Shown piece after piece: positions 13,414 to 55,646 of a DNA stretch of 64,000 nt (position 1 is the first letter of the stretch; each line of letters opens with the position of its first letter). Under the pieces are notes generated by a model that ran no database searches, was not told the DNA's origin, and worked only from the letters and a program-made list of their open reading frames with translations. A program made the position numbers and the translations under genes. The stretch is from Pelosinus sp. (lineage in GTDB: Bacteria; Bacillota; Negativicutes; DSM-13327): NCBI GenBank assembly GCA_029239675.1, contig JARBUM010000006.1:62001-126000 (forward strand), written 5' to 3'.

Positions 13414-13926
13414 CTAATTTCTACAAAGGACGGACAACGCGATGATTTGGTCGATGCTGATCCAAACGATCTGTCCTGGGCTAAATGGAAAAGATGGGCA
13501 TGTTAAAGACAAAATCACAAATTCTTGTGTTGTCTTTACTTCACATTGATAATCATCTTTATGCCCATCATAATCCTTCTCGCAGTAGGGTTTATTTCCA
13601 TCATAATCCTTTTTACTGTAGGGTTTATTTCCCTCCCCATCATTTTGTTTATCGTCACATTTGTGTTCATGGCAACAACAATCTTCCCCCTCAGTTTTAG
13701 TAGCATCTTGGAATTCATTTAGGCCATCCACGGAAATCAATACATGCTTGGGGCTCCTTTTTAATCTGAGTTCAGACTCTTCGAGAACAACTCCGGTAAA
13801 TATACCTTGACCGTTTACTCTTTTACAATGTTTTGTGTCCGCAACTGCAGTGGTAAGGATAGTCACCGTCGAACCGAAATCAAGCTTAAATCCATTAGGA
13901 TGCTGCTTTATAGACAAAACTGTCAA
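13414..13926 (-). CDS. unknown protein with Cys/His/Asp-rich central insert, partner of the divergent gene
   Basis: 170 residues, not recognised. Two beta-rich halves flank a hydrophilic insert at about residues 78-130: a CCCHEHKC cluster and then tandem NKPYxxKDYDG-type repeats. The flanking halves (VLISVDGLNEF, EFVILSLTC, FPFSPGQIVWISIDQIIAL) resemble the product of the divergent gene at 14196 (EFILLELT, TTFPVGTCVAINICNILYA). No signal peptide. The design (two beta parts around a metal-ligand-rich insert) recalls spore-surface proteins, but this is a guess. Confidence 0.65.
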   Translation of the reverse strand: MTVLSIKQHPNGFKLDFGSTVTILTTAVADTKHCKRVNGQGIFTGVVLEESELRLKRSPKHVLISVDGLNEFQDATKTEGEDCCCHEHKCDDKQNDGEGNKPYSKKDYDGNKPYCEKDYDGHKDDYQCEVKTTQEFVILSLTCPSFPFSPGQIVWISIDQIIALSVLCRN

Positions 13927-14195: not shown

Positions 14196-14666
14196 ATGGG
14201 ATTTCCGAAAGATTTTGATTTTGCTGGTTGCGTTAATGTAACTCTGGTCCTCCGTGATTTCCAAGTACTGACTGGACGGTTTAGAGGATTAATAGGCGAC
14301 CGTCAAGAGTGCGATGGCTTTAATAAAGATCACGAAGATGAGAAGTGTAAGAAAGACGATAAGTGCTGTAAGTCACCTAAATTGGAGATTGATGTGAAAG
14401 TAGAAGAGGACTGTGAATTTATTTTGTTGGAGTTGACAAGATCAGTCGCCACGGTAAATCTGAGCTCATTTACATGCAACCTAGTCGATGACACCATTAG
14501 AGAAATAGATTTCGTCGTGTCAGGGACAACATTCCCCGTAGGCACATGCGTTGCTATCAATATATGCAATATTCTTTATGCCGGCCCATGTGCGGTTTTC
14601 TGTGATATACCTTTCTCAATTGGTAGTGCCCCTAATAATGGTGGCTTAACTATATCACTGAAATAA
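14196..14666 (+). CDS. unknown protein with Cys/Asp/Lys-rich insert, divergent partner of the previous gene
   Basis: 156 residues, preceded by AAGGAGAG. N-terminal beta part VNVTLVLRDFQVLTGRFRGLIG, a charged insert with DGFNKDHEDEKCKKDDKCCK at about residues 47-66, then strands EIDVKVEEDCEFILLELT and a Cys-containing C-terminal part. Layout and several strands parallel the divergent neighbour, so the two look like diverged paralogues. No signal peptide. Spore coat or exosporium function is possible but unproved. Structured repeat copy 2 and a terminator follow. Confidence 0.65.
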   Translation: MGFPKDFDFAGCVNVTLVLRDFQVLTGRFRGLIGDRQECDGFNKDHEDEKCKKDDKCCKSPKLEIDVKVEEDCEFILLELTRSVATVNLSSFTCNLVDDTIREIDFVVSGTTFPVGTCVAINICNILYAGPCAVFCDIPFSIGSAPNNGGLTISLK

Positions 14667-15903: not shown

Positions 15904-16608
15904 CTACTGTAGTTCTACCGTTACCTGAACAGTTGCGCCTACAGTTACTTTACCAGCGGGAATATTCGGTGCACCTCCGTCCATACTAGCGGCTTTTAAC
16001 ATCCTAGTTTCCATCATAACTGGGTGATAGAACACACCAGATTCATTTACGAGTGTTACGTTAGCAACTCTTTTATTCAGCGCAGTTGCAATCACTTCCG
16101 CTTTTTTCAAAGCATCTTCAACAGCATCTCTTACTGCTTCATTTTTGCTGTTCGTTTCATTTGCTGTTTCAAAACGGATGGAGTTTATCTCATTCGCACC
16201 CGCACTTGTAATTTCATCCACTAAAATCCCCACTTGTTCTATCGAGGTACTGATTTCAAGTCTATTCGTTACACGATATCCTTCCAACTTAGGTAATTTT
16301 TCTTTTTCATAGTTATAAATCGGATCAACCTGGTATGTACTTGTTTTGATTTGTTCCTCAGTTACTCCCTGCTCTTTCAAATTAGCAAACACACGATTTG
16401 CAATTTGGGTATTGTCATTCTTTGCTTTTTCTAGATTAGCGTTCACCGAGTTTATCGAGAAAGTAATTCGGGCCACGTCAGGGATAACTTCTTTTTGACT
16501 ATTGCCAGTTACCTGCACCACCGTTTTAGGAGCCTCATTTGCAAACACTGGGACGGCTAACAGTAGGCACATAGCCAATAGTAGCGTAATTTTTTTTAAC
16601 ATTTTCAT
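15904..16608 (-). CDS. secreted SIMPL-domain protein (DUF541)
   Basis: 234 residues. A signal peptide (about 1-23, LLLAMCLLLAVPVFA) is followed by a SIMPL domain: VVQVTGNSQKEVIPDVARITFSI, the KAKNDNTQIANRVFANLKEQG helix, and the C-terminal VTVGATVQVTVEL strand. These proteins (YggE-like) are exported, form oligomers and often belong to envelope-stress regulons; exact function unknown. An ECF-type motif GTTAC-N16-CGTT sits at 16668-16644, about 36 bases upstream, tying it to the sigma factor at 18772-19368. Confidence 0.88.
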   Translation of the reverse strand: MKMLKKITLLLAMCLLLAVPVFANEAPKTVVQVTGNSQKEVIPDVARITFSINSVNANLEKAKNDNTQIANRVFANLKEQGVTEEQIKTSTYQVDPIYNYEKEKLPKLEGYRVTNRLEISTSIEQVGILVDEITSAGANEINSIRFETANETNSKNEAVRDAVEDALKKAEVIATALNKRVANVTLVNESGVFYHPVMMETRMLKAASMDGGAPNIPAGKVTVGATVQVTVELQ

Positions 16609-16643: not shown

Positions 16644-16668
16644 AACGTCTCATTTTCGAAAAAGTAAC
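16644..16668 (-). promoter_or_regulatory. candidate ECF promoter of the SIMPL gene
   Basis: On the minus strand GTTAC (16668-16664), 16 bases, CGTT (16647-16644). The same pair with the same spacing lies before the ECF sigma gene (19442-19418) and before the secreted gene at 17679. Confidence 0.7.
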
Positions 16669-16689
16669 GGCTATTTTAACGGTATAAGA

Positions 16690-17679
16690 TTATCTTTTAA
16701 TTTTCAGCTTATTTTTGCTTAATATCTTACCATTCTGGTCAACAAATGTGACTTTCATCGTACCTCGCTCTTCTATAAGACTGCGGTCGATTGTAACATA
16801 ATCATCCGGATAGATGATATTCATTGTAATAAACTGATCGGGATGTGGGCTTTTAGTATGAACATATACGGTCATATTCTTGCCACTCACTGTTACTCTT
16901 TCAATACCAATATTCGATTGGGCTGAAGATGTTCCCATACTTGCAAATAAGATCAGCTTATTATTAAACTCTGTTCCTTTAAATTTTTTTAGTATGTCCT
17001 TTGAAATACGATCATCCTGGGTCAACTGTCCATCATCATTGATGATGGTAGCAAAAAACATATCTTCGGGATATTGAGATTTATAATATTTCCACTCTTT
17101 ATATTTATTAGTTTTAAATAATACTTTTGTTAACTCTTTCTCCGAAGAAAATAGAGCTCCGTCGATTTTATAAGTTGTCCATATTGTGCCTCGCTTGGCA
17201 AATGGCTTAACCATGGTCATAGTATGCGTCTTTCCTTGATGAGTTACCTCAATATCAATTTGTCCATAGCGGGAAATTGAACTACTACTTAGCATCTTCA
17301 CTATAGAAAACCCATCTTTTTCTGTAAATCCATATTTCTTGCCTTCGACCCTCGCGACTTGCATAGGATCAAGCCGCCAAAGTTCTCTGCCTTCATCCAC
17401 ATTTTGCTGCCACTTGATCACTTTATCATAATCAAGACCTTTCACTCCTACTTTGGATTTGCTATATGTATGAAATTCTCTAGGACTGGCCAATTCTAGC
17501 TTACCGGAATATTCATTAGCTTGCACCTGCTGTATATCTGTTGAAACATATGTTTTCAAGTAAACCGGTTCTGCAGCATCAACATGTTTTGGTATAAGTA
17601 CTTGTATTCCAATCGAGGTTACTATAGCAGCACTTGCCGCAAAGGTTGTAATTTTTTTTAATTTCACATTCATCTTCAT
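16690..17679 (-). CDS. secreted protein of unknown function (PrcB-C-like C-terminus possible)
   Basis: 329 residues with a signal peptide (about 1-35, AASAAIVTSIGIQVLIPKHVDAA). The middle part (KSKVGVKGLDYDKVIKWQQ, DGFSIVKMLSSSSISRYGQIDIEV) is not recognised. The C-terminal LILFASMGTSSAQSNIGIERV ... YVHTKSPHPDQFITMN resembles PrcB-C domains of exported protease-associated proteins. A start of GTTAC-N16-CGTT type lies 38-62 bases upstream, and AGGAGGAAG precedes the ATG. It belongs, by promoter and position, to the ECF sigma cluster. Confidence 0.65.
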   Translation of the reverse strand: MKMNVKLKKITTFAASAAIVTSIGIQVLIPKHVDAAEPVYLKTYVSTDIQQVQANEYSGKLELASPREFHTYSKSKVGVKGLDYDKVIKWQQNVDEGRELWRLDPMQVARVEGKKYGFTEKDGFSIVKMLSSSSISRYGQIDIEVTHQGKTHTMTMVKPFAKRGTIWTTYKIDGALFSSEKELTKVLFKTNKYKEWKYYKSQYPEDMFFATIINDDGQLTQDDRISKDILKKFKGTEFNNKLILFASMGTSSAQSNIGIERVTVSGKNMTVYVHTKSPHPDQFITMNIIYPDDYVTIDRSLIEERGTMKVTFVDQNGKILSKNKLKIKR

Positions 17680-17716
17680 CTTCCTCCTCGTGACTAATTA
17701 GTCATCTATATCTATA

Positions 17717-17741
17717 AACGTAATACAATCCAAAAGGTAAC
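17717..17741 (-). promoter_or_regulatory. candidate ECF promoter of the secreted protein gene
   Basis: On the minus strand GTTAC (17741-17737), 16 bases, CGTT (17720-17717). It is identical in core and spacing to the motifs before the sigma gene and the SIMPL gene, and it is embedded in the hairpin at 17717-17756. Confidence 0.65.
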
Positions 17742-17756
17742 GGATTGCATTACGTT
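17717..17756 (-). terminator. terminator of the sigma/anti-sigma operon, overlapping an ECF promoter
   Basis: Arms 17717-17731 and 17742-17756 form a 15-bp stem with one mismatch, followed on the minus strand by only a short T-rich stretch and preceded by A-runs. It sits six bases after the anti-sigma stop codon. The loop and 3' arm contain the promoter motif of the next gene. Confidence 0.65.
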
Positions 17757-17762
17757 TTTTAA

Positions 17763-18794
17763 CTATTGCTCTACTTCTTTCACAATCAAAGCTTCTGCTA
17801 TCTTCTGCAGTTCCGTTGGGGTCTTATTTCCTTCGATGGTTATATCATACTGATCCATTTTCACAGTTATGATGTTAATACTACCTTTTGTATTTTTTGC
17901 GAATGGCTGTAATCCAACATCTTCAGCAAGGGCGTGTACTTCTTCTTTGTTAGCATCGTCCTTACTTCTTTCCCTATTCTCTTCTAGTGGTCTTTGAGTG
18001 ATTATAATCTCATCATGATTACCCAAATTATATACTTGTTGTATAATCCCGCTAGTATTATCTATTTTTATAGATTTTGCTTCCTGATTAGGCATTACCA
18101 TCATCATAGCAATTTTACGTTCAGGCTGAATACTTTTGTTAGCCCTTAAAGATTTCGTTCTCGTTTCCGCCATTTGTACACTTTTTTCTATAGTCATATC
18201 CTTAGGAGTTTCCTGTTGAAGTATTGCCACCTGGTTTGGTTTATTCTCTATTTCTGGTGATTCTACTCCATGTATTATTTCCGCAATTACCTGAGAAACG
18301 GAATCAGAAGATTTATCTTTAACAGGTACAGACATAGTTGTTCCTGTATTATTACCAGATTGATTCTGCTGTGGAATTCTTGTATTAGATTCTACAATGG
18401 TAGAATCACTAGATTGCTCAATAGCCGCTACCAGCTTTTGTTTTTCCGTACTATCATCAACTTGTTGAACCATATGACTATCGGGTGATGGCGGCAATAA
18501 GAAATGTCCGAATGCAGCCATTAGTACTGCTGCTGTTCCGACCAAACCACCAAATAGCCAATGGTTACGCCTTTTTTGCTTTTGCGTCTTAAGTTCAGCT
18601 GCCAATTCTTCAACCATTTCATCAATTAGTAATTTAGGTAAATCTTCTTGACTAAAAGATTGTTTAACTAAGACAGCCACTTCTATCAATTCATTTACTT
18701 CCCCATCCTGCACAACAGGACGTTTACTATCATTCAGACTGTCTAAATATCGCGAAAGTTCATCTGCCTGATTATATTCCAGATCCTTTAGCAT
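17763..18794 (-). CDS. membrane anti-sigma factor of the adjacent ECF sigma
   Basis: 343 residues: cytoplasmic helical N-terminus (1-78) with LSRYLDSLNDSKRP and LPKLLIDEMVEELAAELK, one membrane helix (about 79-101, HWLFGGLVGTAAVLMAAFGHFLLP), a long polar extracytoplasmic linker, and a C-terminal folded part (INIITVKMDQYDITIEGNKTPTELQKIAEALI) like DUF4367-type sensors of anti-sigma factors. It starts inside the sigma gene's 3' end (23-base overlap), the usual arrangement. No zinc-binding HxxxCxxC is visible. Confidence 0.78.
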   Translation of the reverse strand: MLKDLEYNQADELSRYLDSLNDSKRPVVQDGEVNELIEVAVLVKQSFSQEDLPKLLIDEMVEELAAELKTQKQKRRNHWLFGGLVGTAAVLMAAFGHFLLPPSPDSHMVQQVDDSTEKQKLVAAIEQSSDSTIVESNTRIPQQNQSGNNTGTTMSVPVKDKSSDSVSQVIAEIIHGVESPEIENKPNQVAILQQETPKDMTIEKSVQMAETRTKSLRANKSIQPERKIAMMMVMPNQEAKSIKIDNTSGIIQQVYNLGNHDEIIITQRPLEENRERSKDDANKEEVHALAEDVGLQPFAKNTKGSINIITVKMDQYDITIEGNKTPTELQKIAEALIVKEVEQ

Positions 18795-19368
18795 CTACTT
18801 CACCTCCTCCTCTCAGTATGCCTATCCCTAGGCACATCTTACGTAAATTTTGCAAAGCCCTCTGTTGAAGCATCTTAATTGCTGGCTCACTCTTATTCAT
18901 CTGAATGGCAACATCGCGAATTGATATACCTAATATAACTCTTAACTTTACTACTTCACGTTGCTCCTCAGGTAAACGACCAACCAAATTCGCCATCTCT
19001 TCTTGCCCTTCAAGCCGAAGGGTATATTCTTCTGGATTTTCTCCTATGTCAGGAATCGATCCCTGATATTCATTAATATTGACTACCTGAGGGGCACGCC
19101 CATTCTTACGCCAAAAATCAGTCACTACGTTTATCGCAATTTTCCCTAGATAGCTTTTAAATGGAACATCCAAAATCTTATAGCGCGGTAGTGAGCGAAA
19201 CGCCTTCATAAAGGTTTCCTGAGTTAGTTCCTTTGCGTCATCTTCATTACCAAGTTTACTATAAATAAATCTATAAATAGGTTGCCAATAGCATGAAATT
19301 AAAGTATTTAGTGCTTCGCGATCTCCGTCTTTCGCTTTTGTAATCAGTATATTTTCTTCATCAGTCAC
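18772..19368 (-). CDS. ECF-family RNA polymerase sigma factor
   Basis: About 199 residues. Region 2 (YWQPIYRFIYSKLGNEDDAKELTQETFMKAFRSL) and region 4 (LPEEQREVVKLRVILGISIRDVAIQMNKSEPAIKMLQQRALQNLRK) are clear. I choose GTG 19368 with AAGGTGGTGA upstream. A frame extension to a TTG at 19428 is unlikely because the candidate promoter at 19442-19418 would start transcription near 19411, inside it. The overlapping downstream gene is its likely anti-sigma factor. Confidence 0.88.
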   Translation of the reverse strand: MTDEENILITKAKDGDREALNTLISCYWQPIYRFIYSKLGNEDDAKELTQETFMKAFRSLPRYKILDVPFKSYLGKIAINVVTDFWRKNGRAPQVVNINEYQGSIPDIGENPEEYTLRLEGQEEMANLVGRLPEEQREVVKLRVILGISIRDVAIQMNKSEPAIKMLQQRALQNLRKMCLGIGILRGGGEVDAKGSGI

Positions 19369-19417
19369 TGCCGCGATCACCACCTTCTCGTCAGAAAAAC
19401 ATCTGACATCTATTAAT

Positions 19418-19442
19418 AACGATACCAATTCAAAAAAGTAAC
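19418..19442 (-). promoter_or_regulatory. candidate autoregulatory ECF promoter
   Basis: On the minus strand GTTAC (19442-19438), 16 bases, CGTT (19421-19418). It matches the motifs before the SIMPL gene and the secreted protein gene exactly in core and spacing. Confidence 0.7.
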
Positions 19443-19591
19443 GCAGACATTTTTATTGATAGTAAATTGTCCCTAATATCTGCTTTATGAAAAAACGTGA
19501 CTCGTCTTTTTTAACCGCAGAGACATAAAGAACACAGAGAACAATTTTTTTCCTTGCTTTCTTTCACTAAATCATATACTTTCTAGCATAA

Positions 19592-54821: not shown

Positions 54822-55646
54822 TTAAAATAAGAAGGAAGACACTTCGATCCTTTTTATTTTCCATTGGCCATCTTCATATTTCCAACGAGAATAAATATTA
54901 CCAATACCATCAGCACCATAGGCACCAATAATCCGTTGTATACCCTTGAGCTCATATACACCATCATAATCAATATCAATCGGTTCCAATATAGTAAAGG
55001 GATACGAGATCGGCTTCACTTCTTTCAAAAGCTTGCCATTTTCATCATAAATAGCAGACTGTACATAAAAATCTTTTTTATTCTCTAAGTCCAAGAAAAT
55101 CCTACGTTTAGTATTCTCATTAACAAGTTGGGCCTTATAATCATCCACAAATTTTCCTGTAAATTTAGCACCATCATTATTTTTGTGATCAAAAATAACC
55201 CTTGGCTCAGGAAGATTATAATTCACAATCATATGTCCTACTATACCGCCACTTCCACCAGTAGGAGCACTAATCATGACATCACTTATTTTATCACCCG
55301 TGAAATCTCCAACAAATATTTTACCTTGATAACCTGAAAAGTTATTTAAATCCATAGTCTTCACATGATTGGTTGCACCATCACGAACCATAATACCCAT
55401 ATTATCGGAAAATCTATCACTCTTCTTGTTCTTATGTCCAATTAGATAAAGAGTATCTATGACTTCATCTCCTGTAATATCTGCCGCTGATGCATCAATC
55501 ATATAATAGTTAGCAGGCAATTGAAGTTCTTCGAATGCTGAAGTAGTCATTTGTTCTACATCTTTATCTTCAGCAAAAACCGCACCTACTCCAGTAAAAA
55601 AAACACTGAAGATTAAAGTAGCAATCATTGTCCCTGTAAAATTCAT
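54822..55646 (-). CDS. secreted protein with FG-GAP/VCBS-like calcium-binding motifs
   Basis: About 274 residues, signal peptide about 1-26. D-x-T/D-G-D-type loops occur three times: ADITGDEVIDTLYLIG, VGDFTGDKISDVMISA and IDIDYDGVYELKGIQ, as in FG-GAP/VCBS beta-propeller blades. The C-terminus (SRWKYEDGQWKIKRIEV) is a short beta domain. ATG 55646 with GAGAGGGAAG upstream; an ATG at 55685 would extend the N-terminus without a ribosome site. Extracellular or periplasmic; substrate unknown. Confidence 0.7.
   Translation of the reverse strand: MNFTGTMIATLIFSVFFTGVGAVFAEDKDVEQMTTSAFEELQLPANYYMIDASAADITGDEVIDTLYLIGHKNKKSDRFSDNMGIMVRDGATNHVKTMDLNNFSGYQGKIFVGDFTGDKISDVMISAPTGGSGGIVGHMIVNYNLPEPRVIFDHKNNDGAKFTGKFVDDYKAQLVNENTKRRIFLDLENKKDFYVQSAIYDENGKLLKEVKPISYPFTILEPIDIDYDGVYELKGIQRIIGAYGADGIGNIYSRWKYEDGQWKIKRIEVSSFLF

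Follow-up and report, generated by a model that had tools for sequence, protein, structure and literature searches.

A putative ECF sigma factor module with a GTTAC-type promoter in Pelosinus and other Negativicutes

For the ECF sigma factor Tt-RpoE1 of Thermoanaerobacter tengcongensis, the promoter tGTTAC-N16-CGTC was defined experimentally in vitro, and measurements showed that the sigma factor is autoregulated and that Tt-TolB, the membrane anti-sigma factor encoded downstream, inhibits it (PMC3397946). The Asp of its DXXR motif reads the G at position -12 (PMC3397946). The AAC of the -35 box, classically a hallmark of ECF sigma factors, has since been relaxed (PMC8103513). The ECF sigma autoregulon is already known as a kind, and the promoter type described below has a measured precedent in Tt-RpoE1. 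Literature searches that paired sigma factors with Negativicutes, with Pelosinus or with SIMPL/DUF541 found nothing on the present system, and the literature searched contained no described counterpart of the proteobacterial sigma-E response for two-membraned Firmicutes.

Here we analyse a 64-kb stretch of a Pelosinus genome (the window; 64,000 nucleotides), in which four minus-strand genes encode, in the order of transcription, an ECF sigma factor, an anti-sigma candidate, a 329-residue exported protein and a SIMPL-domain protein. The locus shares with Tt-RpoE1/Tt-TolB the -35 box GTTAC, a spacer of exactly 16 nucleotides and a -10 box beginning with CGT. In addition, a single-pass membrane anti-sigma factor, putative in Pelosinus, is encoded directly downstream of the sigma gene, and region 2.4 of the sigma factor carries DFWR, which fits the DXXR motif of PMC3397946 with its Asp present. 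Autoregulation would be a further common trait, as the promoter before the Pelosinus sigma gene suggests positive control of the gene by its own product. Our preferred reading, held at a probability of roughly 0.87, is that the sigma and anti-sigma factors form an ECF system under positive autoregulation, with very few genes in its regulon.

Three promoter sites and the genes they precede

The sequence GTTAC-N16-CGTT has exactly three exact matches in the window, all on the minus strand (16668-16644, 17741-17717 and 19442-19418). In shuffled sequence the average is 0.18, with three matches in none of 100 shuffles. These counts and coordinates confirm what had been read from the sequence alone, namely that such sites lie before the sigma, exported-protein and SIMPL genes. 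With the preceding C included, promoter 1 (C-GTTAC-TTTTTTGAATTGGTAT-CGTT, 19418-19443) serves the predicted sigma/anti-sigma operon, promoter 2 (C-GTTAC-CTTTTGGATTGTATTA-CGTT, 17717-17742) precedes the 329-residue protein gene and is conserved in the genus, and promoter 3 (C-GTTAC-TTTTTCGAAAATGAGA-CGTT, 16644-16669) precedes the SIMPL gene. The distance from CGTT to the start codon is 49 nt for the sigma gene (GTG 19368), 37 nt for the 329-residue protein (ATG 17679) and 35 nt for SIMPL (ATG 16608). A T-run follows GTTAC in all three sites, as had been noticed earlier (GTTACTTTTT, GTTACCTTTT and GTTACTTTTT, in ascending order of position). All three -10 boxes have CGTT and thus the CGT hallmark of ECF promoters. 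The -35 box has TAC in place of the classical AAC, a departure that was also measured for Tt-RpoE1 (PMC3397946). This does not exclude ECF membership, since AAC no longer belongs to the definition.

The sigma gene (18772-19368, minus strand) encodes a protein with Sigma70_r2 (PF04542, 2.8e-14) and Sigma70_r4_2 (PF08281, 4.6e-10), both above cut-off, separated by a short linker and accompanied by no further domain. It also scores above the cut-off of TIGR02937, which is a general ECF match only. The best-scoring NCBIfam model is TIGR02952, the BldN family, at 120.5 bits; this is far under the cut-off of 206.45 bits, so that membership is ruled out by that test. The closest named relatives are from Pelosinus, at 77-80% identity. 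The longest open reading frame begins at TTG 19428, a few bases from the -10 box, and is too long. Relatives keep GTG-AC(T/C)GATGAA and, ahead of it, a Shine-Dalgarno sequence, which in P. propionicus reads AGGAGGTGGTGAT. The protein is conserved from GTG 19368 onwards; we therefore place the start at this internal GTG, in line with the earlier argument that it had to be internal.

The putative membrane-bound anti-sigma factor (343 residues; 17763-18794, minus strand) is assigned from its position and from a 23-bp overlap of its gene with the 3' end of the sigma gene. Its N-terminus is cytoplasmic and is followed by a single hydrophobic segment (about residues 79-100), a long linker and a conserved C-terminal domain, and a relative adjoins the sigma gene in 28 of 60 genomes. 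No anti-sigma domain model scored above cut-off, and there was no TolB or propeller match. Orthologs match DUF4367, DUF3379 and MucB_RseB_C weakly (best E 0.004), which would fit a sensor outside the inner membrane without amounting to proof. The AlphaFold model is poor (mean pLDDT 40).

The gene behind promoter 2 (16690-17679, minus strand) encodes an exported protein of unknown family with a predicted signal peptide, its hydrophobic N-terminus ending in ...VDAA. Orthologs are present within the genus and also in a few further families of the class; no Pfam family scored above cut-off and the AlphaFold model is poor (mean pLDDT 31). PDB profile searches with this protein and with the anti-sigma candidate returned nothing significant. 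Paralogs of the protein are found in many genomes of the class; one lies elsewhere in the genome (G000:C140:51677-52138), has 33% identity and lacks the motif. As a control, none of 18 paralogs elsewhere in the genomes has the motif. The gene behind promoter 3 (15904-16608, minus strand) encodes a 234-residue exported SIMPL-domain (DUF541) protein (PF04402, 3.9e-46); a DUF541 protein is listed among the envelope-fraction proteins of Veillonella parvula, another Negativicute (PMC5491611). Elsewhere in the window, two Pfam-less proteins (13414-13926, minus strand, and 14196-14666, plus strand) are rich in Cys, His, Lys and Asp, contain repetitive stretches and are perhaps spore-surface proteins. 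Rfam and PADLOC searches gave nothing.

Conservation and specificity of the motif

A set of 60 relatives includes 30 class genomes with a sigma ortholog, and in 25 of these the motif precedes that gene at the position of promoter 1. It precedes SIMPL in all 24 sigma-containing genomes examined and in none of the six that lack the sigma factor. In several genomes (G008, G009, G022 and G037) SIMPL lies on a different contig from the sigma gene, and the motif is still there. The 48 distinct sites have the consensus C-GTTAC-[TC]TTTT-N11/12-CGTT, with A/T-rich bases after it (CGTTWW) and freely diverging spacers; CGTT occurs at all 48, the search having required CGT and left the last T free. Of the 60 regions upstream of sigma or SIMPL genes, 49 contain the motif, against 0.027 expected from first-order resampling.

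A wider comparison covered 200 genomes of the class. CGTTAC-YTTTT-N11/12-CGTT is present in 32 of 37 genomes with the sigma factor and in 11 of 163 without it (Fisher p 1.5e-22, a value that overstates independence because genomes share ancestry, although the signal spans many families). The two groups hold 61 and 14 matches, respectively, against 7 and 30 for a reversed control, which does not track the presence of the sigma gene. Five sigma-containing genomes have no exact extended match, and the two inspected (G028 and G094) both carry near variants before the sigma gene. As judged by hand from N-terminal hydrophobicity, with no trained predictor, 60 of the 61 sites in sigma-containing genomes precede the sigma gene itself or a protein with a signal-like segment (the exception being G050:C3:155185), whereas two of the 14 in sigma-lacking genomes precede such a gene, both in G062.

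In other genomes the targets include VWA/YfbK-like and FG-GAP-like proteins, lipoproteins, a serpin, a copper-amine-oxidase-domain protein and a DUF2330 protein. In three genomes, the sigma operon and a divergent gene for a VWA/YfbK-like exported protein have back-to-back promoters of this type (G015:C23:167550-167633, G030:C49:130688-130757 and G040:C206:6147-6219). Across the Negativicutes, the sigma operon and SIMPL make up the conserved core of the proposed regulon, and individual lineages add other exported proteins.

Within its own genome the motif is specific in its extended form only. In the 3.88-Mb assembly, CGTTAC-YTTTT-N11-CGTT has three matches, all at this locus (control, one). 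The bare GTTAC-N16-CGTT has 23 matches against 55 for its reversed control, most of the others inside coding frames, and was rejected as an unspecific genome-wide marker. The sequence-only reading had held that occurrence at chance frequency across the genome would count against the regulon; the bare motif does occur at such a frequency and the extended one does not. A scan of the same genome with one mismatch allowed yielded 11 matches (control, 12) and no convincing further member, in an assembly that is 89% complete, such that a few regulon members may be missing from it. Elsewhere in the window, an FG-GAP-like segment (55284-55526, minus strand) resembles a motif-controlled secreted protein of other Pelosinus genomes and has no motif match nearby.

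A hairpin overlapping the second promoter

Promoter 2 coincides with a hairpin with a 17-bp stem (17716-17757, minus strand; -26.2 kcal/mol, z -6.8 against shuffles), the loop of which holds the -35 box, with the -10 box at the end of the 3' arm. By the same fold test, no strong inverted repeats were found at promoters 1 and 3. It had been proposed earlier that this promoter is buried in a terminator hairpin: the fold confirms the hairpin itself, whereas a role as terminator is tentative.

As an addition to the main explanation, the hairpin might be the intrinsic terminator of the sigma operon, in which case read-through and initiation at promoter 2 would compete for shared sequence; we regard this as conceivable and hold it tentatively, at less than even odds. 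In its favour, only 5 nt separate the hairpin from the anti-sigma stop codon, the fold is strong, and the other Pelosinus genomes examined have the hairpin too, shortened in one of them. Against it, the sense-strand tail, UUUAUAG, makes a weak U-tail for intrinsic termination, and the hairpin was not called by a terminator scan. Base changes within the genus are one-sided (A-U to G-U) or, in one case, break a pair, with no compensatory change, and conservation of the 3' arm is already explained by the promoter at the DNA level. Outside the genus, a promoter with a different spacer precedes a member of the same family as the 329-residue protein (G086), which implies that promoter 2 can do without this particular hairpin sequence.

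Two further observations concern this region. In P. fermentans UBA6563 (L191:5621-5900), promoter 2 and the hairpin are retained while most of the exported-protein gene between the anti-sigma and SIMPL genes is gone, and the T-run of the promoter has a T-to-A change, as if decaying. In the window, a perfect 14-bp palindrome (TGACTAATTAGTCA, 17691-17704) lies between promoter 2 and the Shine-Dalgarno sequence; its arms TGAC/GTCA are largely retained in relatives and its centre varies.

Proposed mechanism, alternatives and known systems

In the resting state, the membrane anti-sigma factor would hold the sigma factor. Release, through loss of the anti-sigma factor, would follow a signal arising outside the inner membrane; given the exported targets, envelope stress is the likeliest. 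The freed sigma factor would then bind the CGTTAC-YTTTT-N11/12-CGTT promoters and guide RNA polymerase to them. In this genome, the predicted targets are its own operon, the adjacent 329-residue exported protein and the exported SIMPL protein. The earlier proposal that sigma factor, anti-sigma factor and two exported proteins form one module with a single promoter type is supported by phylogenetic footprinting, by the co-occurrence of motif and sigma factor in 200 genomes and by the conservation of SIMPL sites irrespective of linkage.

Could another ECF sigma factor of the same genomes read the motif, with this one merely among its targets? Class genomes do hold several ECF sigma factors, G062 has the motif before SIMPL with a sigma factor that is only 31% identical, and in one family (G018, G035, G044 and G051) SIMPL has such a promoter while the sigma gene does not. 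The last two points, like the five sigma-containing genomes with no exact extended match and the lack of a recognised anti-sigma domain, also weigh against the preferred reading. The motif nevertheless tracks this sigma factor over the 200 genomes and lies directly before its gene in most sigma-containing genomes, so we consider that explanation improbable. Still less probable is that the shared sequence is a repressor or activator binding site and no promoter at all. The location of one site within a long palindrome is consistent with such a role, whereas the other two lie outside strong inverted repeats, and the arrangement as two boxes at a fixed spacing of 16-17 nt, with free spacers and 35-50 nt before the starts in this locus, argues for a promoter, as do the ECF-type CGT box and the fact that the promoter measured for Tt-RpoE1 is almost identical (PMC3397946). 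Finally, three similar AT-rich strings could have arisen by chance or shared ancestry and have no function, in keeping with the lack of enrichment of the bare motif in the genome. We give this hardly any credence: only 0.18 matches are expected in the window, and the motif is conserved over many families with diverged spacers, also at unlinked loci.

Taking the autoregulated sigma/anti-sigma system as the preferred reading, one may ask whether the diderm Firmicutes (Negativicutes) rely on it as their main envelope-stress response, a functional counterpart of sigma-E/RseA built on another ECF lineage, with SIMPL as core effector and, as sensor, the C-terminal domain of the anti-sigma factor with its weak likeness to MucB/RseB and DUF4367. 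We think this doubtful. The literature searched has no precedent for a class-wide regulon of this kind, for SIMPL at its core, for the extension of the promoter by T-run and C or for the unclassified anti-sigma candidate. With a motif this sharp, target genes can be listed at once for dozens of genomes. The finding also ties the SIMPL proteins, which are widespread but poorly understood, to an ECF sigma factor, and it widens the GTTAC class of ECF promoters, so far little noticed and described from one thermophile, to an entire bacterial class.

The likeness to the Tt-RpoE1 system is one of promoter and operon layout, and SIMPL is absent from the described Tt-RpoE1 cluster. The -10 box is CGTC there and CGTT in Pelosinus, and the published pattern has neither the T-run nor the preceding C, GTTAC being preceded by t. 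Likewise, Tt-TolB is a TolB-type anti-sigma factor of 645 residues, whereas the Pelosinus candidate has 343 and a different C-terminal domain. With RpoE/RseA of E. coli and SigW/RsiW of B. subtilis, the locus shares the combination of an ECF sigma factor, a membrane anti-sigma factor (putative in Pelosinus) and envelope-related targets, as well as a -35 box in which AC is followed by T's (GGAACTT and ATTGAAACCTTT, quoted in PMC8103513). However, the central A-tract of those -35 boxes is replaced by TTA in Pelosinus, and the anti-sigma candidate is not recognisably homologous to RseA or RsiW.
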